Shown here one piece after another: positions 214 to 20,177 of a DNA stretch of 30,012 nucleotides. Both the position numbers and the translations under genes were made by a program. The stretch comes from a virus: IMG/VR virus record IMGVR_UViG_3300034019_000468, positions 1 through 30,012 of that record; one strand, written 5' to 3'. The notes beneath the pieces are model-generated. The model saw only the letters and a program-made list of their open reading frames with translations, ran no database searches and was not told where the DNA came from. Every line of letters starts with the position of its first letter. The stretch's first letter is position 1.

Positions 214-1584
214 ATGGGAAAAAGAGAATTAGAAAACTTTATAAGAAAAATTGTAAAAGAAGCACCAATAGATTATGGTGATAATCCGGAAAGAATGCAC
301 CCAAGGACTCAACAAAGAATTGAGGATCCTGAAGGAATTTATGCAAAAAATAGAGCGTTTAAGAAAGGTGTTTCAGATGTTGAGAAATTAACAGGTACAA
401 GATTTAAAGAAATTGTTAACTATGTTAAAAGATATTATAGTACTGAAAGGAATGTAACAGACCCACAAATAAAAAGAGCTATCCAGATGGAACAAATGTT
501 ATCTGTTAGACAAGCTATGCAAATTGAACCTCGTTATCGTGAACAATTAAGAGACTTAGCTGTTGAGATTGCAGCAAAAGAAGAAGGGTGGATGCCATAT
601 AATAAAACTATGGAACAAGCGATTGAAGAGGGTCTTGTTTTAAAAAACAGAAAACAAGGTGGTGTTGTTTATGAATTTGATTTTGTTAATATGTTAACAT
701 TTCTAGGTGAACAAGGTATTGACCCAGGTATTTTCCAAATGAAATCAAAAGAAAATCAAAAATTACCATTACCTCCAAATTTTTCTTTTGATATTGATGA
801 ATTGACACCAGAAGAACAAAAACAATTGGAAATTGAAAAAAGAAACGTTATCAATGCAATTATAATGGGTAAAGGAAAACGTGGACAATTTGCTTACCAA
901 ATGTTTAAAGACAGATTAGATGCAATTGATCCAGGACTATATCCACTATATAATAAAATTATGGGTGCAAATGATTTAATGTATTTCACTGATGAAGATT
1001 TAATTGAAGCTTTGGGTGGAAATGCTGCTGGTGCCGCTGGTAAAATGAACGAAAATGATGACGACGATGATGATGAAGACCAAGGTGGTGAGGAAGATAG
1101 TAATGACACTTATTATGCAAACGGAGTTATTTTTCCAATCTTACTTCACGAATTATTTAAATCATTCTCAATGATTCAGTCAAGAGCACAATGGAAAGAT
1201 ATGGACCCAGAAATGGCAACACAAGTTATTTCACAAACAGATACAATGCAAAATGAACCAATGAATTTCCGTGTTGGTGGTGAATTAGTTAGAAAATTAA
1301 GAACTTTATTACCAGATGAATTAACACTAGATCAAGATGGTAAAAAATATGTTCCGTTTTTTGAACAACTACTTTATAGTATCCCGGCTGAAGAATTTTT
1401 AAAAGATGTAATTGCAAATGTTATTTCTGATGAAAAATCAGATAATGATAAAGCTGTTAGAAAATTTAATGAATTATTACAAAAAGCAAAAGCAGAATAC
1501 AAAAAATATAAAGAAGGTGATGACGATGATGATTATGAAGATGAGGACGAAGATGATGATATTTTAACTAGATTAGGATTATAA
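214..1584 (+). CDS. Acidic hypothetical phage protein with capsid-targeting-like N-terminus
   Basis: The 456-residue product is not one I recognise. Residues 4-17 (RELENFIRKIVKEA) form a short amphipathic helix ending in a VKE-A site, which resembles the N-terminal tags at 14723 and 17437 in this window and the T4 pattern in which packaged internal proteins carry a short N-terminal capsid-targeting peptide cut by the prohead protease. The middle (about 60-270) looks globular and mixed alpha/beta. Two runs of Asp/Glu follow, one near residue 280-300 and one at the C-terminus just before LTRLGL. The gene starts one base after the previous stop and is followed by a strong hairpin terminator, so it ends a transcription unit immediately upstream of the terminase gene. 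A minor head or neck protein is a reasonable guess, but no catalytic motif is visible. Confidence 0.75.
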   Translation: MGKRELENFIRKIVKEAPIDYGDNPERMHPRTQQRIEDPEGIYAKNRAFKKGVSDVEKLTGTRFKEIVNYVKRYYSTERNVTDPQIKRAIQMEQMLSVRQAMQIEPRYREQLRDLAVEIAAKEEGWMPYNKTMEQAIEEGLVLKNRKQGGVVYEFDFVNMLTFLGEQGIDPGIFQMKSKENQKLPLPPNFSFDIDELTPEEQKQLEIEKRNVINAIIMGKGKRGQFAYQMFKDRLDAIDPGLYPLYNKIMGANDLMYFTDEDLIEALGGNAAGAAGKMNENDDDDDDEDQGGEEDSNDTYYANGVIFPILLHELFKSFSMIQSRAQWKDMDPEMATQVISQTDTMQNEPMNFRVGGELVRKLRTLLPDELTLDQDGKKYVPFFEQLLYSIPAEEFLKDVIANVISDEKSDNDKAVRKFNELLQKAKAEYKKYKEGDDDDDYEDEDEDDDILTRLGL

Positions 1585-7085: not shown

Positions 7086-7802
7086 ATGAAAATACTAGGA
7101 CCAAACGAAACCGGTAAAGGAATTCTTATTGAATACGATGCCGGATATATTAACCCAAAGAGTACTAATAACCATTATATAATGGAATCTCAAAACTTTT
7201 TGGACCATTCTAAACCATTTGAATTCTATGCGGTATTACAAAAATACGACACACCAAATAGAAATGGTAGAGTATATCCGGAAAAGATATTAAAACGAGA
7301 AGCTGAAAATTATAAAAAAATGATTGAGAAAGGTACATCTCTTTCAGAATTAAATCACCCAGAATCATCACTTATTGATCTTGACCGTGTATCACATATT
7401 ATAACTGAAGTTTGGTGGGACGGACCCGTATTACTTGGTAAATTAAAACTTTTAACAAGTCCTGGTTTTCACGAAAGAGGTATTGTATCAACAAAAGGTG
7501 ATATGGCCGCAAATTACCTTAGACAAGGTGTTACACTTGGTATTTCTTCTCGTGGTGTTGGGTCGTTAAAAAAAGTTGGTGAACAAAATGAAGTACAAGA
7601 TGATTTTGAATTAATCTGTTTTGACCTTGTGTCATCCCCATCAACACCTGGAGCTTACTTATTTTTAGATAAAAATGACAGACATAAATTTGATGAAAAT
7701 TTAGAAGAAGATAAAAGAATGGCTATTGAAAGAAATATTGGTGAAGCTGGCAACAAATCTCTTGACTTAATGAAAAGATTATCCGATTATTTGGGAAAAT
7801 AA
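7086..7802 (+). CDS. Prohead core protease (T4 gp21-like)
   Basis: A serine protease that matures the prohead by cutting scaffold, internal proteins and the capsid protein. The 238-residue product shows the fold's signature segments: FYAVLQKYDTPNRNGRVYP near residues 47-65, the probable catalytic His91 in ELNHPE, and the nucleophile Ser154 or Ser155 in GISSRG. The T4 enzyme cuts after Glu in (L/I)xE sites. The protein itself has such a site near the C-terminus (IGE-AG, residues 218-222), which would fit self-processing. It is followed by a small DUF4494-like gene, a terminator and the scaffold gene, giving the usual protease-scaffold-capsid order. The substrate specificity is inferred from the T4 family. 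Confidence 0.92.
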   Translation: MKILGPNETGKGILIEYDAGYINPKSTNNHYIMESQNFLDHSKPFEFYAVLQKYDTPNRNGRVYPEKILKREAENYKKMIEKGTSLSELNHPESSLIDLDRVSHIITEVWWDGPVLLGKLKLLTSPGFHERGIVSTKGDMAANYLRQGVTLGISSRGVGSLKKVGEQNEVQDDFELICFDLVSSPSTPGAYLFLDKNDRHKFDENLEEDKRMAIERNIGEAGNKSLDLMKRLSDYLGK

Positions 7803-9857: not shown

Positions 9858-11729
9858 ATGGGAGCATTATTAGAATCAGGTCTTGTTGGTAACATCGGTT
9901 TAAAACACCTTAAAGTTATCAAAGAAGATACAATTAACAAATGGGATAGATTAGGATTCCTGGAAGGTCTTAAAGGACATTTAAAAGAGAACGTTGCACA
10001 GTTATATGAAAACCAAGCATCTCACCTAATTAACGAAGCAACTTCTGAAGGTTCAAATGGAGCTTTTGAAACTGTTGTTTTCCCTATCGTTAGAAGAGTA
10101 TTCTCTAAATTATTAGCTAACGATATCGTATCTGTACAAGCTATGAACTTACCTATCGGTAAATTGTTCTACTTTGTACCTAAAATTCAAGGTTATTCAA
10201 GTGGTTACGATAACGGAACATCAGGTGTTCATTATCCACCAGTTGGTTCTCCAGAAGCAGTTAACTCTGGTCAAAACAGTCCAGGACAAGGTTATGACTC
10301 TGGATTCCCTTACGCAAAAAATCTTTATGATTTATTCTACGAAGGTGCAGAACCAGGATTAGATCCAGGTGGTTTATTTGACTATTCAAAAGGTCGTTGG
10401 TCGGCTATTACAGCTCCAGCTACAGTTGTTGTTTGGACTGGTAGTTCTTTAGTTGATGCAACAGGAACATTAGTTAATGCTTATACTGGTAACACAAGAA
10501 AAGTTCTTATCAAACTTTGTGGATGGAATAACGTACCAGGTGCAGGAAAATTAATTGGACCTGATGGAAATGAAATTGATTCTGAAACTTTCCTTTCTGA
10601 TTTGAAAATTTTACCTGACACAGGTCTTGGTTTTTCAGCTTCTAACGTTTGTCCACTTCCTACGGCATCTACACCACTTTTATTTAGAGTTGTTACTCAA
10701 AAATATGGTAAAGGAATTGTAGAATATGGTCAACAATCACAAACTTATTTCCCAGCTGGAAGTCCTGCAGGGACTGCATCTAACACAGGTAATGGTGGAT
10801 CTTTCTACGATATTTGTGATGCAAATGGTTGTATCTTCTTAGAAGTTGACCTTTCTTGTCCTGCTTGTGCTACTTGTGGTGATACATCATTAGACGGATA
10901 TACAGGTTCTTCTATTTCTGCAATTACTTCTGGTACATCATTTACTGCTGTATGGAAAAGATATGAAGAATTAGAATTTGAAGAAAAAATCGGAGAAGTT
11001 TCTTTTGATTTAGAGTCTGTAACAGTTTCTGTATCTGAAAGAAAATTAAGAGCGCAATGGTCTCCAGAACTTGCTCAAGACGTTGCTGCATTCCATAACA
11101 TCGATGCTGAAGCTGAATTGACAGCTTTATTATCTGAACAAGTTGCTGCTGAAATCGATAGAGAAATCCTTAGAGACCTTAGAAAAGGTGCTGCTTGGAA
11201 TTTGAGATGGGATTACAACGGATGGAGAAGATTGTCACTTACAACTTCTTACACTCAAAAAGACTGGAATCAAACGTTGATTACTGCGATTAACCAAATT
11301 TCTGCACAAATTCACAAATCTACTTTGAGAGGTGGTGCTAACTGGATCGTAGTTTCTTCTGAAATTTCTGCAATCTTTGATGACTTAGAATACTTCCACG
11401 TATCTAACGCGTCTCCTGAGCAAGACCAATACAATATGGGTATCGAAAGAGTTGGTACATTAGCAGGTCGTTACCAAGTGTATAGAGATCCTTACTTCCC
11501 ACCAAACACAATCTTGTTGGGTCATAAAGGAACATCTCTTTTAGACACAGGTTACATCTACGCTCCGTACGTACCTCTACAATTGACACCTACAATGTAT
11601 AACCCATTCAACTTTACACCTATCAAAGGTATAATGACTCGTTACGCTAAGAAAATGGTTAACAACCGTTTCTACGGAAGAATCACAGTTGATGGAGTTA
11701 GAACATTTGACTTGAGAGAATTGAGATAA
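9858..11729 (+). CDS. Major capsid protein (T4 gp23-like)
   Basis: The main shell protein. The N-terminal prodomain (1-60) contains TINKWDRLGFLEGL, comparable with the NKWKPLLE region of T4 gp23, and ends with HLINE-ATSEG. INE-A fits the prohead protease rule, so mature protein probably begins at Ala61 (T4 gp23 is cut after residue 65). VVFPIVRRVFSKLLANDIVSVQAMN (written here in parts: VFPIVRRVFSKLL, ANDIVSVQAMN) corresponds to the gp23 segment MVRRAIPNL / FDICGVQPMN. The C-terminus GYIYAPYVPL ... PIKGIMTRYAKKM matches the gp23 end. At 623 residues it is about 100 longer than gp23, with an insertion (about 185-355) holding a cysteine cluster at 320, 325, 334, 337 and 340. It is flanked by a candidate late promoter and a strong terminator. 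Confidence 0.95.
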   Translation: MGALLESGLVGNIGLKHLKVIKEDTINKWDRLGFLEGLKGHLKENVAQLYENQASHLINEATSEGSNGAFETVVFPIVRRVFSKLLANDIVSVQAMNLPIGKLFYFVPKIQGYSSGYDNGTSGVHYPPVGSPEAVNSGQNSPGQGYDSGFPYAKNLYDLFYEGAEPGLDPGGLFDYSKGRWSAITAPATVVVWTGSSLVDATGTLVNAYTGNTRKVLIKLCGWNNVPGAGKLIGPDGNEIDSETFLSDLKILPDTGLGFSASNVCPLPTASTPLLFRVVTQKYGKGIVEYGQQSQTYFPAGSPAGTASNTGNGGSFYDICDANGCIFLEVDLSCPACATCGDTSLDGYTGSSISAITSGTSFTAVWKRYEELEFEEKIGEVSFDLESVTVSVSERKLRAQWSPELAQDVAAFHNIDAEAELTALLSEQVAAEIDREILRDLRKGAAWNLRWDYNGWRRLSLTTSYTQKDWNQTLITAINQISAQIHKSTLRGGANWIVVSSEISAIFDDLEYFHVSNASPEQDQYNMGIERVGTLAGRYQVYRDPYFPPNTILLGHKGTSLLDTGYIYAPYVPLQLTPTMYNPFNFTPIKGIMTRYAKKMVNNRFYGRITVDGVRTFDLRELR

Positions 11730-11878: not shown

Positions 11879-14455
11879 ATGAAAAATTTTTTAATCTTAC
11901 TATTTACCCTAATTTCTTTTTTGGGTTTTACACAAGTATCAAGTCTTTATTCATTTTCTGAAACAACTGGTACATATACAGCAATTGTTGGTGGTACGCA
12001 ATTAGTAACAACAACAGGCGGTGCTATCACTTATGATACTGATGGTAGTTATTTTACAATACCATCTGGTTCACAATTTCAGTTTAACAATACAACAATT
12101 ACATCTGTTAATATGACAGCAGATGGTGCTTTGTTTTTAAACCCAGGAACAACAACAACAGGAAACGGTGTAACGGGACCAATATCATCAACAGGTACTG
12201 CAGTAGGTGTTATTGCAGGTATGGGTATGGATTTAAGAAGTACGGCAATTGCGTCACAAGTATATGAAAGAAGATGGGAGGATGTAGGTACTGAAGTGGT
12301 GTTTCAATGGCAAAATGCCGCAAGATATTTACAAAGTAGTTCAGAAAGATTTTCATTTCAAATTAGAGTAAACAAATCAAATGGTCAAATAAGTGTTGTG
12401 TATGGTAATATGACGACAATTACAACAAGTACAACTTATCAACCAATGGTTGGTTTAAGGGGTTCCACAAATACAGACTACAATAACAGAAGATTAACAA
12501 CTTCTATACCGGATGCAACACCAAATTGGGGGGCACCAAATGGTACAACCGCTGGAACATCTAATGCTCACAACGTAAGGTTTCGTAGTGGATGTGTTCC
12601 TTCAACAGGGTTAATATTTATTTGGACTGTGCAATCTTGTATAGGACCCACATTACCAACAATATCGTACACTTCATCATCAACCGCAAATCTTTCTTGG
12701 ACAGCACCATCACCAACACCAAACAATGGTTATAATTGGGAATTAAGGTCGTCAGGTGCGGGAGGAAGTGGGGCTACAGGTCTAGTGGCGTCTGGTTCAG
12801 TTGCCGCCGGAACAACAACCACGACTGCGAGTAGTTTAACCCAACAAACGTCCTATATTCTTTATGTGCAAAGTAATTGTGGTGGAACTACAAGTTCTTG
12901 GGTTGCTTCTACTGCATCTATAAGCCCACCAACTAATAATGATTGTTCAAATGCAACATCTGTCACAGTAAACAGTTCTTCAACTTGTACCTCAACAACT
13001 TCCGCTAGTAGTGTTGGTGCGACACAATCCTCAGCGGCATGTACCGGTACAGGTGCTGATGATGATGTTTGGTTTTCTTTTGTTGCAACAAATACTTCAC
13101 ATATTATTACTGTCACACCAGGTACTATGGCTGATGTTGTTTTTCAAGTGTATGGTGGTAATTGTGGTGGACTTTCATCACTAGCTTGTATTGATGTTAC
13201 AGGAGGTTCTAGTGTAGAAACCACAACAGTTAATAGTTTAAGTATTGGTGTTACTTACTACATAAGAATTCATAGTTACGCATCCACTGTTGGGTCAAGG
13301 GGTACTTTTACAGTTTGTATTACAACACCCTGTACGACACCAACAACCGCAGGAACACTTTCTTCTAACAAAACATCTACCGTTGTAAATGATGCTGTTA
13401 CATTCTCAATTGTGGGAAATGGAGGTAGTGTAACATTATTAGAATGGTCTTTTAATAATTTTAGTACAGTTGCTGGATCAACAACAAATCCAGTTATGCC
13501 ATACACATTACAACTAAATGTTGCACAAACAAATATGTATTTTAGAACAACTTCAGTAAATGGTTCTTGTCCCGCCGGTGTTACATCACCAATTTTAGTC
13601 ACATTAGAACTTGCACCACCATATACTTATGGGGTTAGTGATGGTGATTATATTACAAATGTAACTTTAAGTGATATTAATAACACATCTACTGAAGACG
13701 GAGACGCATATTCTGATTACCTTTCAATTGTCGGTAATTTAGATATTGGTGGCGTTTATACAATATCTGTTTCAGGTACACTAACTTTTGGTTCGTACCC
13801 TGGTTATGCCGCTTGGATTGATTGGGACCAAGACGGGGTATTTCAAACAACAGAAAATGTGTTATTATCAGCACCAGGTGCGACAGGTTCTGCTTCTGTT
13901 AATGTACCAAATGATGCTATCGGGGGTACAGTTAAAATGAGAGTGATTTCTGTTTGGAATGCGACACCAACAAATGATGCTTATTATTCGACAGGGTATG
14001 GTTATGGTGAAATAGAAGAATATAGTGTACTATTAAGTGTTGCATTACCTGTTGAATTGAGTCAATTTGAGGGATTACCATACCAACAATGGAACGTAAT
14101 AAAATGGTCTACCGATTCCGAACAAAATTCAAGTCATTTTGATTTAGAATCAAGTATTGATGGTGAAAACTGGAGAAAAATAATAACAATTCCGTCAGCA
14201 GGAAATTCAACAGAAGAATTAAAATATTCTTACATTGATAATAATTTAAATAGTATTGTTTATTATAGATTACAACAATTTGATATTGATGGTAAATTTG
14301 AAACATACGGTCCGATAGTTATCACAAGGGATGTTACAGATAAAAAAATTATAGGTTATATTAATTTATTGGGTCAAAAGGTTAACCCTATATATACTAC
14401 CGGTGTAATTATTGAGATTTATGATGACGGAACTATGGTTAAAAAGATTAAATAA
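11879..14455 (+). CDS. Large secreted surface protein with FN3, GEVEDY and T9SS-like C-terminal domains
   Basis: An 858-residue protein built like a flavobacterial secreted protein, not a virion protein. Residues 1-19 (MKNFLILLFTLISFLGFTQ) are a typical signal peptide. A beta-rich domain follows to about 255, then a fibronectin III-like domain (about 265-345, ANLSWTAPSP ... YILYVQSNCGG). Next is a pre-peptidase-C/CUB-like domain (about 353-480, DDDVWFSF ... YYIRIHS) and a GEVEDY domain (about 582-718) with AAWIDWDQDGVF and GEIEEY at 710-715. The end is a PVELS-type domain from 723 (LPVELSQF ... NWRKI ... YYRLQQFDIDGKFE) and a final segment NLLGQK ... IYDDGTMVKKIK resembling type IX secretion sorting tails. 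It probably passes the inner membrane by Sec and reaches the host surface by the host T9SS. Flanking genes on both sides are phage genes. Function is unknown; surface masking or adhesion are guesses. Confidence 0.8.
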   Translation: MKNFLILLFTLISFLGFTQVSSLYSFSETTGTYTAIVGGTQLVTTTGGAITYDTDGSYFTIPSGSQFQFNNTTITSVNMTADGALFLNPGTTTTGNGVTGPISSTGTAVGVIAGMGMDLRSTAIASQVYERRWEDVGTEVVFQWQNAARYLQSSSERFSFQIRVNKSNGQISVVYGNMTTITTSTTYQPMVGLRGSTNTDYNNRRLTTSIPDATPNWGAPNGTTAGTSNAHNVRFRSGCVPSTGLIFIWTVQSCIGPTLPTISYTSSSTANLSWTAPSPTPNNGYNWELRSSGAGGSGATGLVASGSVAAGTTTTTASSLTQQTSYILYVQSNCGGTTSSWVASTASISPPTNNDCSNATSVTVNSSSTCTSTTSASSVGATQSSAACTGTGADDDVWFSFVATNTSHIITVTPGTMADVVFQVYGGNCGGLSSLACIDVTGGSSVETTTVNSLSIGVTYYIRIHSYASTVGSRGTFTVCITTPCTTPTTAGTLSSNKTSTVVNDAVTFSIVGNGGSVTLLEWSFNNFSTVAGSTTNPVMPYTLQLNVAQTNMYFRTTSVNGSCPAGVTSPILVTLELAPPYTYGVSDGDYITNVTLSDINNTSTEDGDAYSDYLSIVGNLDIGGVYTISVSGTLTFGSYPGYAAWIDWDQDGVFQTTENVLLSAPGATGSASVNVPNDAIGGTVKMRVISVWNATPTNDAYYSTGYGYGEIEEYSVLLSVALPVELSQFEGLPYQQWNVIKWSTDSEQNSSHFDLESSIDGENWRKIITIPSAGNSTEELKYSYIDNNLNSIVYYRLQQFDIDGKFETYGPIVITRDVTDKKIIGYINLLGQKVNPIYTTGVIIEIYDDGTMVKKIK

Positions 14456-14722: not shown

Positions 14723-16186
14723 ATGATAATTGAGGATTTAATAAAGAAAATATTAAAAGAAGCAACAACAGATTCTGGAAGTAGGGGGTCTTATGCACCA
14801 CCATTACAACCTGGAATACGTGACTTTGACAAATCAAAATTAGCACCATTCACAGATTCTGTATCAAACTATAAAAGTCCTTTAGTTGCTTATGATAGTT
14901 ATGATTACGATTGGGATTTACCTCAAAATCAAAGACAAAGATTGGAAAAAACGGCAAGAAAAATATCAAACTTTATAAAGAAACACCCAGGGTCAACAAA
15001 TAGTGACGAAGATGGTAATGTTTTAAACAGAACACCAAGTGGTAAAGAAAATTCAAAAAAATTAGAAATTGTTCCAATTAAAGAAGCTGATACTGCAACG
15101 TCTGCTGGTGAATATACGGGGCCGATTGAATTGGGTCTGAAAAAATGGAAAAAGAATAATTTAGCACCATTTACGGAATTTATAGATACAAAATTTAACC
15201 ACCAAAAAAAACAAAAAACTGTTAAAAACAATATTAAAAAAACTGTCGGTGTTTGGGAAAAAAATTCAGATGGAACGTACAAACAAGATGAACACGACGT
15301 ACATACATTAACAGAAGATTTAGCCGTTTGGTTTGGTAAAAAGAAAAAACCAAAAGGCTCCTCACAACCAAAAGGTCCTTGGGTTGATATATGTAGAAAA
15401 GTTGATGGTAAACATCCACCTTGTGGTAGATCAGATGCCAGTGAAGGTTCTTACCCAAAATGTAGAGCTGCCGGTGTTGCTGGTAAAATGTCAGATTCCG
15501 AAAAAAGAAATGCTTGTAGTCAAAAAAGAAAAGCAGAAAAAAATGACCCACAATCTGGTAAAGGACAAAAACCAGTAATGGTATCACATAAGAAAAAAAC
15601 AAATGAAAATATGAAAAGAAGAATTATTACCCTTACGGAAGATGATTTAACAAGAATTGTTAAAAGGGTTTTGAATGAAGAAAAAACGGAACCAACAATA
15701 TCACCCGATCAAGATATAACTTTGACTTGTCAGGATTTTAAGTTTTACATGGAAGGTGAAACAAAAAAAATAAAATTATATTCAAAATATAACATTGATG
15801 GTAAACTTTCTACAGATTCTAAGGTATTAGAAGGTGGAAGTTTTACTGATACGGGTCATTTACCTGGAGAGGCGTGGGGTACAGGATTTGTTTCTGAAAC
15901 TGGTAGTGAATACGGTTTAAGTTTTTATGTTGATGAGAATAGTACTACATCACCAGTAGATTCACCTTATGAACCGGTAAACAGCAAATTACAAAGGTTT
16001 GATTTAGTTCCTATGTCAAAAGAATTTAAAGATATATTGGGTATATCAACACTAGGAGACCACATGATTTTTCACATGGAAGGAGGTAGAAAACAAGGAT
16101 ATTGCGTGGTATCAAGTAATCCCCCAAGTGAAGAATTCAAAAATGAGTTAGTTTCAAATTGGGGGTTGAATAATGACGTATTTTAA
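14723..16186 (+). CDS. Modular polyprotein-like phage protein with repeated protease-like sites
   Basis: A 487-residue protein made of units separated by (L/I)xE sites. Residues 1-14 (MIIEDLIKKILKEA) form an amphipathic tag with LKE-A. A unit of about 26 residues ending LAPFTD follows and is repeated after IKE-A (119-122) as GEYTGPIELGLKKWKKNN-LAPFTE; both copies fit G-x-Y-x-x-P-[LI]-x-x-G-[IL]-[KR]. After LTE-D (196-199) comes a basic module with GPWVDICRKVDGKHPPCGRS, YPKCRAAG and many Lys. After LTEDDLTRIVKRVLNEE (about 304-320) comes a beta-rich C-terminal domain. I chose the ATG at 14723 over 14705 because it gives the same type of N-terminus as the proteins at 214 and 17437 and leaves TATTTAT outside the gene. 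An internal, protease-processed capsid protein is the best inference. The 3' end overlaps the convergent lipoprotein gene by four bases. Confidence 0.8.
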   Translation: MIIEDLIKKILKEATTDSGSRGSYAPPLQPGIRDFDKSKLAPFTDSVSNYKSPLVAYDSYDYDWDLPQNQRQRLEKTARKISNFIKKHPGSTNSDEDGNVLNRTPSGKENSKKLEIVPIKEADTATSAGEYTGPIELGLKKWKKNNLAPFTEFIDTKFNHQKKQKTVKNNIKKTVGVWEKNSDGTYKQDEHDVHTLTEDLAVWFGKKKKPKGSSQPKGPWVDICRKVDGKHPPCGRSDASEGSYPKCRAAGVAGKMSDSEKRNACSQKRKAEKNDPQSGKGQKPVMVSHKKKTNENMKRRIITLTEDDLTRIVKRVLNEEKTEPTISPDQDITLTCQDFKFYMEGETKKIKLYSKYNIDGKLSTDSKVLEGGSFTDTGHLPGEAWGTGFVSETGSEYGLSFYVDENSTTSPVDSPYEPVNSKLQRFDLVPMSKEFKDILGISTLGDHMIFHMEGGRKQGYCVVSSNPPSEEFKNELVSNWGLNNDVF

Positions 16187-16972: not shown

Positions 16973-17437
16973 TTAACAATAAACACCAGAACAACGTTTT
17001 TTACCATCTAAACCAGGTTTAGATCCTTTACAAACTTGTACAGCGTAACCATTTGCATAAGCACTAGGATACACGTCAAATTTAGATTTAGCAGCAGCTT
17101 TTCCTCTTGCACATAATTTTGTTCCAGTTTTCTTTCTACCTTCCATCATAACCATATCTTTATCATCAATATTCATAGACATTTCCATACCGTCTTTTTT
17201 TGATTCGTTCATAAGAAAATCAAAAACCTGATCCATATTATTTTTTGCTTCAGCAATATGGTCTTGAGCCCAATCGTGACCATTTTCTAAAATAGATTCT
17301 ACCATTTGTTGGTCTAAATCTAACAGTAAATCACACTGTCTTCTCATCTGTTGAAGATTTGAGAAGAACATGTATCTTGATGACCCACGTTCTTCTTCTC
17401 TTAAAACTTTTCTAATTATACTATCTAAATTTATCAT
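16973..17437 (-). CDS. Protein with capsid-targeting-like N-terminus and basic Cys-containing C-terminal module
   Basis: A 154-residue protein in two parts. The N-terminus MINLDSIIRKVLREEE is an amphipathic helix with an LRE-E site, closely comparable with MIIEDLIKKILKEA of the protein starting at 14723. A helical middle follows (MRRQCDLLLDLDQQMVE ... EAKNNMDQVFDFLMNESKK). The last 50 residues are a Lys/Gly/Cys-rich module: KLCARGKAAAKSKFDVYPSA, YANGYAVQVCKG, then GKKRCSGVYC. I recall this YPSAYANGYA-type module from uncultured marine and freshwater phage proteins, but not a function. If the prohead protease cuts at LRE, a basic protein would stay in the head with the DNA. It sits four bases downstream of the tail-fibre gene at 17442. 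Confidence 0.75.
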   Translation of the reverse strand: MINLDSIIRKVLREEERGSSRYMFFSNLQQMRRQCDLLLDLDQQMVESILENGHDWAQDHIAEAKNNMDQVFDFLMNESKKDGMEMSMNIDDKDMVMMEGRKKTGTKLCARGKAAAKSKFDVYPSAYANGYAVQVCKGSKPGLDGKKRCSGVYC

Positions 17438-17441
17438 ATTA

Positions 17442-20177
17442 TTAAGCGTTTAATCCGTTAGGTCCACCTAATACAACCATATTTAATTGTGTAACCTCTC
17501 TACCATAACCATCAGTCCATACTGGATGTGGTGGTGCAACTGCTGTTGATCCAGTAAATTCACAATCTGGAATACAAATAAAGTTTTCGGTGTTTGCACT
17601 TCTTGGTGAATTTACAACTGATGATTCACAAAATGTACAATTAAAATAAAACTCAACCGCAGTAAATCCTTGTTCTTCTAAAGGTATTGGACAAAGATTT
17701 GTTATTTGATAACAACTACCATTAGAATCTTTAACACTATAATTTGTTAATGAACCAAAATTATAAATTGACAAGTAATTATCAAGTGTTATACTAACAA
17801 AAGACTCAACAAGGGTATCACAATTAACTAATGTAACACCAATTAATCCTTGTGAGTTACAAGTTTCACAACTATCATAAATTAATGTTGAACCAAGTCC
17901 ATTTTTTTGTGTATTGTAATAAGTATAATAACCACTGTAAGAACTAACGGTGTTAATAAGGCCAGCACAAATCCATTCATTTGAACCCCACATTAATTTA
18001 ACAGTATCACCCTGTGCTACTGTATCATCCGTTGTAACATAAAAAGAGCTATATGTGTTTGAATTTGTACATGCTGAAGCATTCCATATCTGTATATTTG
18101 GTTGTCCATTAAAGTAACAAGTAGCACAATCATCGTCGTTACCACTAAAAGTTTCAACACTATATAATGTGTCATCATAATACGTTGAAGAAGTTCCAAC
18201 TATAGTACAACATTCATCAATTGCTGGATTATAAAAAACAGAACCATTTTGTAAATATTGGTATGATTTTATATATCCACTCAAAGTTGAACCACCAGTT
18301 TGAGAGAAATACCTTAATCCATCATTTCCACCATCATCGTTTTCAAATCCAAGATAAATATTATTATTAACATTGTAGAAATCAAAACCATAACAACAAT
18401 TAGAAGATGGTGTTACCGTATCATTTGTTACAACAATACCATTTGTTAACGGATTTATTTTTAATAAACCATTTGGTAGTGCAACATATATGTAACCATC
18501 ATAATTATTATATCTGATATTACCTGGAGATTGAGGTGTTGTTATTGTATTTGTTACAGTTTTTGTTGTTGTATCAATAACTTTTACTTGATTATATCCA
18601 CTACAAGTAACATACATATTTCCACTAGTTGGCTCATATGCAATATCATAAGAACCATTAACGGGTATTGATGTAACGTGTGTTAGTGTGTTTGGATTAT
18701 AAACCTCAACACTATAATAACCACTTGCAGTTGTATAAACCTCATCATTAATTGGATCATATGATATAAATTTTTCATAATAGCCACTTGCTGTTGAAAT
18801 TGAACCTGTTACCGTATTTGATAGTGTGTCAAATATTTTAATACTATAGTCACTACAAGTAATAAATAATCTGTTATTTGGTAAATCTTTTGTCATACGA
18901 AACGACGTTGAACCAATACTATATGGTGTTGTTGTTCCAGAAATATCAATTGATGTATCTAATTTACGAATATTAGTTTGGTTATTACTTGTAAGATACA
19001 TCGTATTTGTATCATAATATAAAATATCGCCAGTACCACCACCAGGTATTGTATATTGAGTATAGACAGAGTTTGTTGATGGGTCAGCAACAATCATTCT
19101 TGTTGATTGAGTTGTTGTGTACATATGTTGTGTATCTGGGTTATACTCAACATCAAAAGGAGTTTCACTTGTACCCTCAAAATCAATTAAACCGTCATAT
19201 GAAAAACCAGAAATAGGATAACAAGTTTCGTATTGGTAGTTAATACCATTACACTCAATACAAGGTTCACACCCTGGTTGTGGATCAAAGTTTAAATAAT
19301 TATTAATTGTTACATCGTCTTCTGTTAAACCAGAAACTATAAAACAACCACTATCGGTTGATAAATTTGATATATCACCAGTCCCAAATAAACTTGCAGC
19401 CCAAACAACTTCAGTATATTCAGGGTCAGTACAACTTTGTAGTAATACTTTTTGATTTTCAGTTGCAAGACAGTCATCACAAGTTGCACTACCACCGTCA
19501 CCACCTAAACCATAATCATTAATAAATGTAAATGGAACGCCACCGGTACCTAATCCAACTACAGTTCCACAATATTCGTTAACTCCATCTGAGTATGCTA
19601 TAATATGATCTATAAAACTATTATTTATTAATAACACGTAATCTGTTACGTCATCTGTACATCTTTGAACTTCATAAGAAAGTGAGTTACTAGATAAACA
19701 GTCTTGACAATCAGTTTCTAATGTTGGTACTATTTGTACTACACCTATTTTTCCATCAGCAATACTATTATTATAATCACTTTCTGTAAGTTGCCGAATA
19801 CCCCCCTCTCTATCAACAGTAACACAAGTTGTAATTAAATTAGATCCTATTAAAAATGTTAAATAATACGTAGCACCAATTGTTGGTAAAAAACCAAAAC
19901 TTTCTAATGTTAAAGTATATTGACGATTTTTAAAATTAAAACAATCTGTTACCGTAACAATGCCATAATTATTTGACATACAGTCATAACAATCAGTATA
20001 TAGTGTGGTTAATAACGTTGTACTACTACCTTCAGTAATTCCAGTTGTTATTGTTACACAATATGGTCTATCATCCGAAGTGTTCCAAACTTCACCAATT
20101 GAGGGTATGTTTCCGTTAAAATTTACTGATAGTGATTTATTTTCATCTTGACAGTAAGTCGCGTTATCTAATGCCAT
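17442..20177 (-). CDS. Tail fibre/adhesin-like protein: seven-bladed beta-propeller between CxxC modules
   Basis: A 911-residue protein with no signal peptide. The N-terminal third has repeated modules of about 75-80 residues, each ending in a Cys pair: DCYDC (63/66), DCQDC, TCDDC and GCEPCIEC. Residues about 338-655 are a YVTN-type beta-propeller with about seven blades of 40-45 residues (IYVALPNGLLKINPLTNG, MYVTCSGYNQVKVIDTTT, VYTTASGYYSVEVYNPNT). Further CxxC modules follow (DCATC, SCETC, NCTFC), then a C-terminus reading HPVWTDGYGREVTQLNMVVL. Propellers of this type bind proteins or glycans, so a host-recognition role at the tail tip or virion surface is likely. It is in the baseplate operon, 11 bases after the fibre-like gene. 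The Cys pairs may form disulfides or bind metal. The virion role is inferred from context. Confidence 0.8.
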   Translation of the reverse strand: MALDNATYCQDENKSLSVNFNGNIPSIGEVWNTSDDRPYCVTITTGITEGSSTTLLTTLYTDCYDCMSNNYGIVTVTDCFNFKNRQYTLTLESFGFLPTIGATYYLTFLIGSNLITTCVTVDREGGIRQLTESDYNNSIADGKIGVVQIVPTLETDCQDCLSSNSLSYEVQRCTDDVTDYVLLINNSFIDHIIAYSDGVNEYCGTVVGLGTGGVPFTFINDYGLGGDGGSATCDDCLATENQKVLLQSCTDPEYTEVVWAASLFGTGDISNLSTDSGCFIVSGLTEDDVTINNYLNFDPQPGCEPCIECNGINYQYETCYPISGFSYDGLIDFEGTSETPFDVEYNPDTQHMYTTTQSTRMIVADPSTNSVYTQYTIPGGGTGDILYYDTNTMYLTSNNQTNIRKLDTSIDISGTTTPYSIGSTSFRMTKDLPNNRLFITCSDYSIKIFDTLSNTVTGSISTASGYYEKFISYDPINDEVYTTASGYYSVEVYNPNTLTHVTSIPVNGSYDIAYEPTSGNMYVTCSGYNQVKVIDTTTKTVTNTITTPQSPGNIRYNNYDGYIYVALPNGLLKINPLTNGIVVTNDTVTPSSNCCYGFDFYNVNNNIYLGFENDDGGNDGLRYFSQTGGSTLSGYIKSYQYLQNGSVFYNPAIDECCTIVGTSSTYYDDTLYSVETFSGNDDDCATCYFNGQPNIQIWNASACTNSNTYSSFYVTTDDTVAQGDTVKLMWGSNEWICAGLINTVSSYSGYYTYYNTQKNGLGSTLIYDSCETCNSQGLIGVTLVNCDTLVESFVSITLDNYLSIYNFGSLTNYSVKDSNGSCYQITNLCPIPLEEQGFTAVEFYFNCTFCESSVVNSPRSANTENFICIPDCEFTGSTAVAPPHPVWTDGYGREVTQLNMVVLGGPNGLNA

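Follow-up and report, generated by a model that had tools for sequence, protein, structure and literature searches.

A Candidate Capsid-Targeted Precursor, with Prohead-Protease-Like Sites before Its Units, in an Uncultured T4-Like Phage

An uncultured, T4-like virus likely encodes a capsid-targeted precursor, that is, a protein of 487 amino acids which the prohead protease would cut to yield several internal head proteins. As the starts of this protein's modules are all preceded by the motif that is expected of such a protease, one gene probably delivers several small proteins, with the protein itself probably carried inside of the virus head. This reading is underpinned by the co-variation of sites and units among relatives, by unit losses which fall at sites, by the existence of the C-terminal domain as a tagged gene in its own right, and by the presence of both a head protease and a comparable site in gp23. 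Counting against it are the looseness of (L/I)xE as a motif and the weakness of internal depletion of such motifs in units A and C. Cleavage, packaging, DNA binding, and injection are what I infer from these comparisons of sequences.

The Gene, Its Units, and Its Phage

The window, meaning here the whole stretch of DNA that was analyzed, is a 30,012-base IMG/VR record from an uncultured virus. I read its open reading frames as including those for a large terminase subunit and a portal protein, and it is because of these, along with a head maturation protease, an acidic protein that occupies the scaffold position, and gp23 (Pfam Gp23, E 5.8e-72), that the virus can be described as T4-like. Flavobacterium phage immuto and Rhodothermus phage RM378 are among the cultured relatives of the window's gp23, and on this basis the host is probably a bacterium of the Bacteroidota. 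Downstream of the protease, scaffold-candidate, and gp23 genes is found the gene considered here, which is on the plus strand, starts with an ATG at either 14705 or 14723, and ends at 16186. Residues of its product are counted from the ATG at 14723 (Table 1).

Units A and B of this product open with GSYAPPLQPGIR...LAPFTD and GEYTGPIELGLK...LAPFTE, respectively. The original prediction had seen in these a duplication, and indeed the two openings align as homologues across some 36 columns (E 1.5e-11 and 97% probability by profile-profile comparison), diverging past that point. Present as well, at the residues claimed for them, are the four motifs that had been described, LKE-A, IKE-A, LTE-D, and LNE-E. 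Isoelectric points are 8.8 for unit A, 8.9 for unit B, about 10 (9.9-10.0) for unit C, and 4.6 for unit D. No Pfam family matched the protein above its curated cut-off, nor did any NCBIfam family match.

Table 1. Positions in the window of the 487-residue protein's parts, and of other head-associated features (a slash marks the presumed cut)
Feature	Coordinates	Strand	Basis
Head-cluster protein, N-terminal tag ending VKE/A, residues 14-17	214-1584	+	Tag scan; site at residue 16
gp21-type head maturation protease, presumed cutter	7086-7802	+	phrog_207, E 1.2e-41
gp23 major capsid protein gene	9858-11729	+ (strand of its INE/A site)	
Reference site INE/A, gp23 residues 58-61	10029-10040	+	LINE/A or LINE/S in listed gp23 N-termini
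Tag 1, residues 1-13, MIIEDLIKKILKE, putative capsid-targeting sequence	14723-14761	+	Predicted helix 3-10
Site 1, LKE/A, residues 11-14	14753-14764	+	48/48 unit A starts after [ILV]xE
Unit A plus its C-terminal linker, residues 14-121	14762-15085	+	Opening homologous to unit B
Site 2, IKE/A, residues 119-122	15077-15088	+	48/48 unit B starts after [ILV]xE
Unit B, residues 122-198	15086-15316	+	Absent in seven relatives
Site 3, LTE/D, residues 196-199	15308-15319	+	52/52 unit C starts after [ILVM]xE
Unit C, basic Cys/Lys module, residues 199-296, four Cys	15317-15610	+	phrog_23735, E 2.3e-5
Tag 2, internal, residues 297-319, MKRRIITLTEDDLTRIVKRVLNE	15611-15679	+	Same motif opens separate genes in relatives
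Site 4, LNE/E, residues 317-320	15671-15682	+	E in 7/7 homologues with following domain
Unit D, beta-rich domain, residues 320-487, two conserved Cys	15680-16183	+	Modelled alone: pLDDT 73, pTM 0.72
Neighbouring tagged protein, LRE/E residues 12-15, C-terminal basic Cys module	16973-17437	-	phrog_27331, E 1.1e-15

Two further proteins of the window may be mentioned. Between gp23 and the gene of interest is encoded an 858-residue, adhesin-like protein (11879-14455) possessing a signal-peptide-like start plus fn3, GBD_T9SS_assoc, and GEVED domains; proteins with similar ends are found in the same place in L001, L004, L016, L019, L020, and L021, and it looks like a host-type secreted protein that is carried by the phage. 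A 911-residue protein (17442-20177, minus strand) has a beta-propeller-like stretch of YncE/YVTN type (E 7e-10, which is below the family cut-off) and is possibly a fibre or receptor-binding protein.

Sites at the Unit Boundaries

In phage T4, gp21 cuts after L/I-x-E and matures internal proteins by removing their capsid-targeting sequences (PMC9026906). It is mainly because of that known specificity, together with a matching site in gp23, that the boundary motifs are read here as protease sites. That is, (L/I)xE is present at the proposed cut positions (as LKE, IKE, LTE, and LNE), and a gp21-type protease as well as a gp23 with a like site (LINE/A) share the window's contig. In the same viruses, all of the more than 40 distinct gp23 N-termini that are listed have LINE/A or LINE/S at around residue 60, with ATSDGSSGSFETVVFP or some version of it coming next; an example of how unit A opens in relatives is LRE/ATSDSGGSRGSY. 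The gp23 propeptide was considered in addition as a source of the tags and was rejected, alignments in five pairwise comparisons being marginal at best (p 0.03 to 0.17).

Within the 487-residue protein itself there are six [LI]xE motifs versus 3.6 +/- 1.7 in shuffled sequences, a number that is within chance and which, as evidence, was rejected. The claim therefore rests on relatives. (The two motifs that are not at sites 1 to 4, IIE at residues 2-4 and LTE at 304-306, are inside of tag helices.) Two scans of IMG/VR led to 89 related loci, with at least 351 relatives in the second scan, and from the scanned loci plus the window 75 distinct proteins were drawn. Fifty-two of these, all from uncultured T4-like phages and including the window's own protein, are less than 80% identical to one another. 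The refuting case set beforehand was that of units being kept without their sites, and what is found among these 52 homologues is [ILVM]xE directly before 148 of 148 unit starts (by unit, Table 1). P3 is I, L, or V, and once M, while P2 varies, K, N, R, S, and T being among its residues. From composition, [ILVM]xE would be expected at about 1.4% per exact position, as for unit C, and at about 12% for units A and B, any of roughly nine positions there being accepted. E198 is invariant, and E13 and E121 are nearly so.

It might be supposed instead that this is not a head protein at all, i.e., that its xE motifs are a coincidence unrelated to the prohead protease and that its action is at the tail or within the infected cell. 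The looseness of (L/I)xE and its within-chance count in a single protein are in keeping with that supposition, as too is one relative's tagged protein that has GDSL, peptidoglycan-binding, and SLT domains (below). Conservation at 148/148 boundaries, versus approximately 1.4% per exact position, nevertheless argues against it, as does the gene's placement downstream of protease and gp23, and I consider a non-head protein to be highly improbable.

The 12 residues upstream of the sites at boundaries A, B, and C form 18, 30, and 14 unrelated groups, respectively (members of a group being at least 40% identical to its founder), and persistence of the sites therefore is not simply a by-product of linker conservation. 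In L003 the IKE is gone, reading VKH, yet KINE/I is found directly before unit B, while in L007 and L008 insertions place ILIE/A and LNLNE/I right before that same unit. Unit B is absent from the close relative L001 and from L076, L078, L081, L084, L088, and L090, with unit A joining unit C directly, and unit A is absent from L042, L043, and L086, in which a tag or linker is followed directly by unit B. These losses fall exactly at sites, a site remaining directly before the next unit each time. The claim that the site belongs to the unit is borne out in this manner, as sites and unit boundaries co-vary across the 52 homologues and the site survives both linker swap and unit loss. Within unit B, furthermore, [IL]xE is depleted (3 versus 25.9 +/- 4.6 expected from shuffles), whereas in the shuffle comparison for units A and C depletion of [ILV]xE is weak and not clear; avoidance of internal sites therefore is partly supported. 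At site 4, at least 10 of 27 C-terminal tags that lack a following domain have no hxE, as compared with the seven homologues of Table 1, but the dependence of this site on the following domain is suggestive (Fisher p 0.08) and was set aside.

As a separate observation, the linkers of L007, L008, L019, L031, L033, L064, and L076 contain two xE motifs that are 10-17 residues apart (NE/WVEV.....INE/), between which a short acidic peptide could be excised from between units.

Cutting of one protein into a number of pieces is also a property of the T4 core proteins gp22, gp67, and gp68, from which gp21 generates several fragments, via L/I-x-E sites, that mostly are removed (PMC9026906). The 487-residue protein could, by analogy, be a scaffold-like component of the prohead core, one that is targeted and cut in the same way but with pieces which aid assembly and then are expelled before DNA packaging, and its gene indeed is downstream of those of the protease, scaffold candidate, and gp23. 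The T4 proteins are scaffolds, however, while the sites of the 487-residue protein bound conserved, exchangeable units. Of those units, A, B, and C have basic isoelectric points (8.8 to 10.0), relatives can do without individual ones, and unit C, instead of being acidic filler, is a module that is both shared and well conserved. A multi-module relative from cyanophage S-SCSM1, in addition, is annotated as a virion protein. Expulsion as scaffold consequently seems unlikely.

Overall confidence is low in the AlphaFold2 model of the full-length protein (pLDDT 52.5). Residues 30-90 of unit A are modelled with confidence, helices are seen at both tags (3-10 and 306-317), and all four sites are within stretches of pLDDT below 50 (11-26, 94-138, 194-214, and 318-326), i.e., in what are predicted to be disordered linkers. 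For domain D, also modelled alone, there was no significant Foldseek match to its fold (VIA Z at most 4.2), and its two Cys are invariant in 11 divergent sequences. Disorder at the sites is relevant to yet another alternative, which is that of a multidomain virion protein that is not cut, except perhaps in losing tag 1, and whose inner xE motifs are kept for other reasons such as the capping of unit starts. As unit C's invariant LAVWF comes right after E198, this residue could in fact be part of that unit's fold. A hydrophobic P3, free P2, and E at P1 nonetheless are seen at all three boundaries, despite differing downstream residues, the same pattern terminates the tags as well as the gp23 propeptide, and the sites are in predicted disorder. 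A protein that stays uncut appears quite unlikely.

Two Tags, a Putative Fusion, and the Proposed Processing

Tag 1 is predicted to be a short helix, ending in LKE/A, that is found also on other proteins of these phages and which in sequence is unlike the T4 tag; the tag peptide as a query against phages gave no useful match. Delivery had been predicted to involve a single targeting tag, a view that is not supported in that wording since residues 297-319 form a second, targeting-like helix, and since the domain behind this second tag is, in relatives, a separate tagged neighbour gene. Tag 2 is complete and of a type with which other proteins of these phages also begin; the codon at 15611 may formerly have been a start codon. 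An N-terminal helix ending in hxE is present as well on the window's neighbouring minus-strand gene and on the gene at 214-1584, and for the neighbour the hxE is constant among relatives while the type of tag differs. Three large relatives have several unrelated genes that begin with these tags or with ones like them.

The related domain D that is a separate gene is found just downstream in L034, L061, L081, and L134, its proteins having their own N-terminal peptide, which ends in PLLxE/Q. For this reason the window gene is best seen as having arisen through the joining of two tagged genes, i.e., as a fusion, with E319 putatively at the position where a separate D protein would be cut. The opposite direction, of one gene having been split in relatives, is a possible alternative. 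In L044 an interruption of the domain D frame occurs between the tag and the domain. L040 has a TAA in frame (11111-11113) between tag 2 and D, with D lacking an obvious start codon; read-through, a recent gene split, or decay might each account for that TAA. Unit D as a query against viral contigs matched solely the known close relative.

Tags elsewhere deserve some description in their own right. In one relative, G001 (L098-L104), many unrelated genes start with one of three classes of hxE-ended N-terminal tag, LTExDLxxLIKRVLxE, xESEKxRILxLHxxxLxE, and RFxQLLESxMGNVKPLxxE, two of which were recognized by eye and by pattern; these may suggest a large set of head-targeted proteins. L099 encodes a protein (242-853) that bears the tag MLDNIIKRVINE and has, at its C-terminal end, a basic module, AEHRGKKVKLGSPFRTPGG... 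(phrog_7595), after SINE/A, a repeat in another gene of the site-before-module pattern. In L106, from a relative, the protein encoded at 12358-13947 (minus strand) begins in tag-like fashion (MKIIIKESQLKKIIAIISE) and then has domains of GDSL hydrolase, peptidoglycan-binding, and SLT type. This is possibly an instance of cell-wall enzymes as head cargo or instead an indication that the tag is not restricted to the head, and with such enzymes behind a tag, specificity for head cargo may be doubtful.

As to how the precursor would be processed, tag 1 (and tag 2) would bring it into the prohead core, as T4 capsid-targeting sequences do. During head maturation the gp21-type protease would then cut after E13, E121, E198, and E319, removing tag 1 and releasing A, B, C, and D as separate proteins, with tag 2 staying on the C-terminus of the released unit C. 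Once released, the units would stay DNA-associated and could be injected. Unit C, being basic and possessing four Cys, most likely binds DNA.

Unit C in Other Phages, Known Systems, and Implications

Among phage isolates none was found with the whole protein. Unit C alone (phrog_23735) is matched, with further occurrences in Pelagibacter phages and in marine cyanomyoviruses; Flavobacterium phage immuto gave no unit C match, which by itself is uninformative. In cyanophages unit C sits in T4-GC119/phrog_727, a multi-module protein, encoded near terminase genes, that contains DUF6321 along with other basic Cys modules and, in some cases, DUF192, and which was called a hypothetical protein in a 2010 survey (PMC3037559). 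As read off from the sequences, LNE precedes KGRKSYE or KGRRSYE in 13 of 14 of these cyanophage proteins; the other modules often are preceded by E, with a looser P3. The 487-residue protein has no full-length phrog_727 match and no DUF6321 match, but phrog_23735 alone, over unit C. For the S-SCSM1 copy (S-SCSM1_29) the link to the virion is a GenBank annotation as virion protein, the ORF going unnamed in the main text of the paper that reports 45 virion proteins by mass spectrometry (PMC9602691).

T4-GC119/phrog_727 proteins (e.g., Bellamy gp123 and S-SCSM1_29) resemble the 487-residue protein in combining unit C with small basic Cys modules, many of them directly after E. They differ in that units A, B, and D are not matched, P3 is looser, no such N-terminal tag was noticed, and the location is near terminase genes. 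T4's IPI, IPII, IPIII, and Alt carry capsid-targeting sequences and are matured by gp21, Alt being cut at its C-terminus as well (PMC9026906, PMC3012670). Shared with these are a short N-terminal peptide ending in a gp21-type site, basic cargo, and variability of the cargo behind conserved tags. The T4 proteins, though, have one tag per cargo, whereas the 487-residue protein has several modules, a site before each, and a second, internal tag, and no sequence similarity was found between it and the T4 internal proteins' cargo. Inner head proteins of phiKZ and SPN3US likewise have multiple prohead-protease sites per protein (PMC9026906, PMC10052503), but the extra sites chop a discarded propeptide rather than separating conserved units. 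Polyvalent proteins, of phages and conjugative elements, similarly have several domains per chain and are thought to be packaged, injected, and often processed, but mostly are larger chains with enzymatic domains and built-in peptidases (PMC5512222). Several enzymatic or effector domains are what define them, while in the 487-residue protein, with its small modules and separate prohead protease, no enzyme domain was recognized by Pfam, PHROGs, or NCBIfam.

The original prediction had supposed this strategy not to have been described for these phages. That stands to the extent that, in the open-licence literature, no description was found of a modular, protease-punctuated internal head protein of such a kind; it is weakened in that a multi-module relative, with modules that mostly come after E, is widespread in marine cyanophages, although no paper was found that presents this relative as a processed cargo polyprotein.

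A broader proposition, over which I am evenly divided, is that marine cyanophages and those T4-like phages with probable Bacteroidota hosts share the use of a true capsid polyprotein, that is, one precursor of small, shuffled, and mostly basic modules, each with its own prohead-protease site, that are released in the head. The precursor reading predicts exact new N-termini. Among known T4 internal proteins there is one tag and one cargo, from which a module and cut site that travel together would differ. If true, then phages could change their internal head proteins quickly, module and site moving jointly, and there would follow function hypotheses for phrog_23735, phrog_727, DUF6321, and phrog_27331. 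A precursor of this sort would, in addition, lend itself naturally to loading a capsid with several proteins in fixed ratio.
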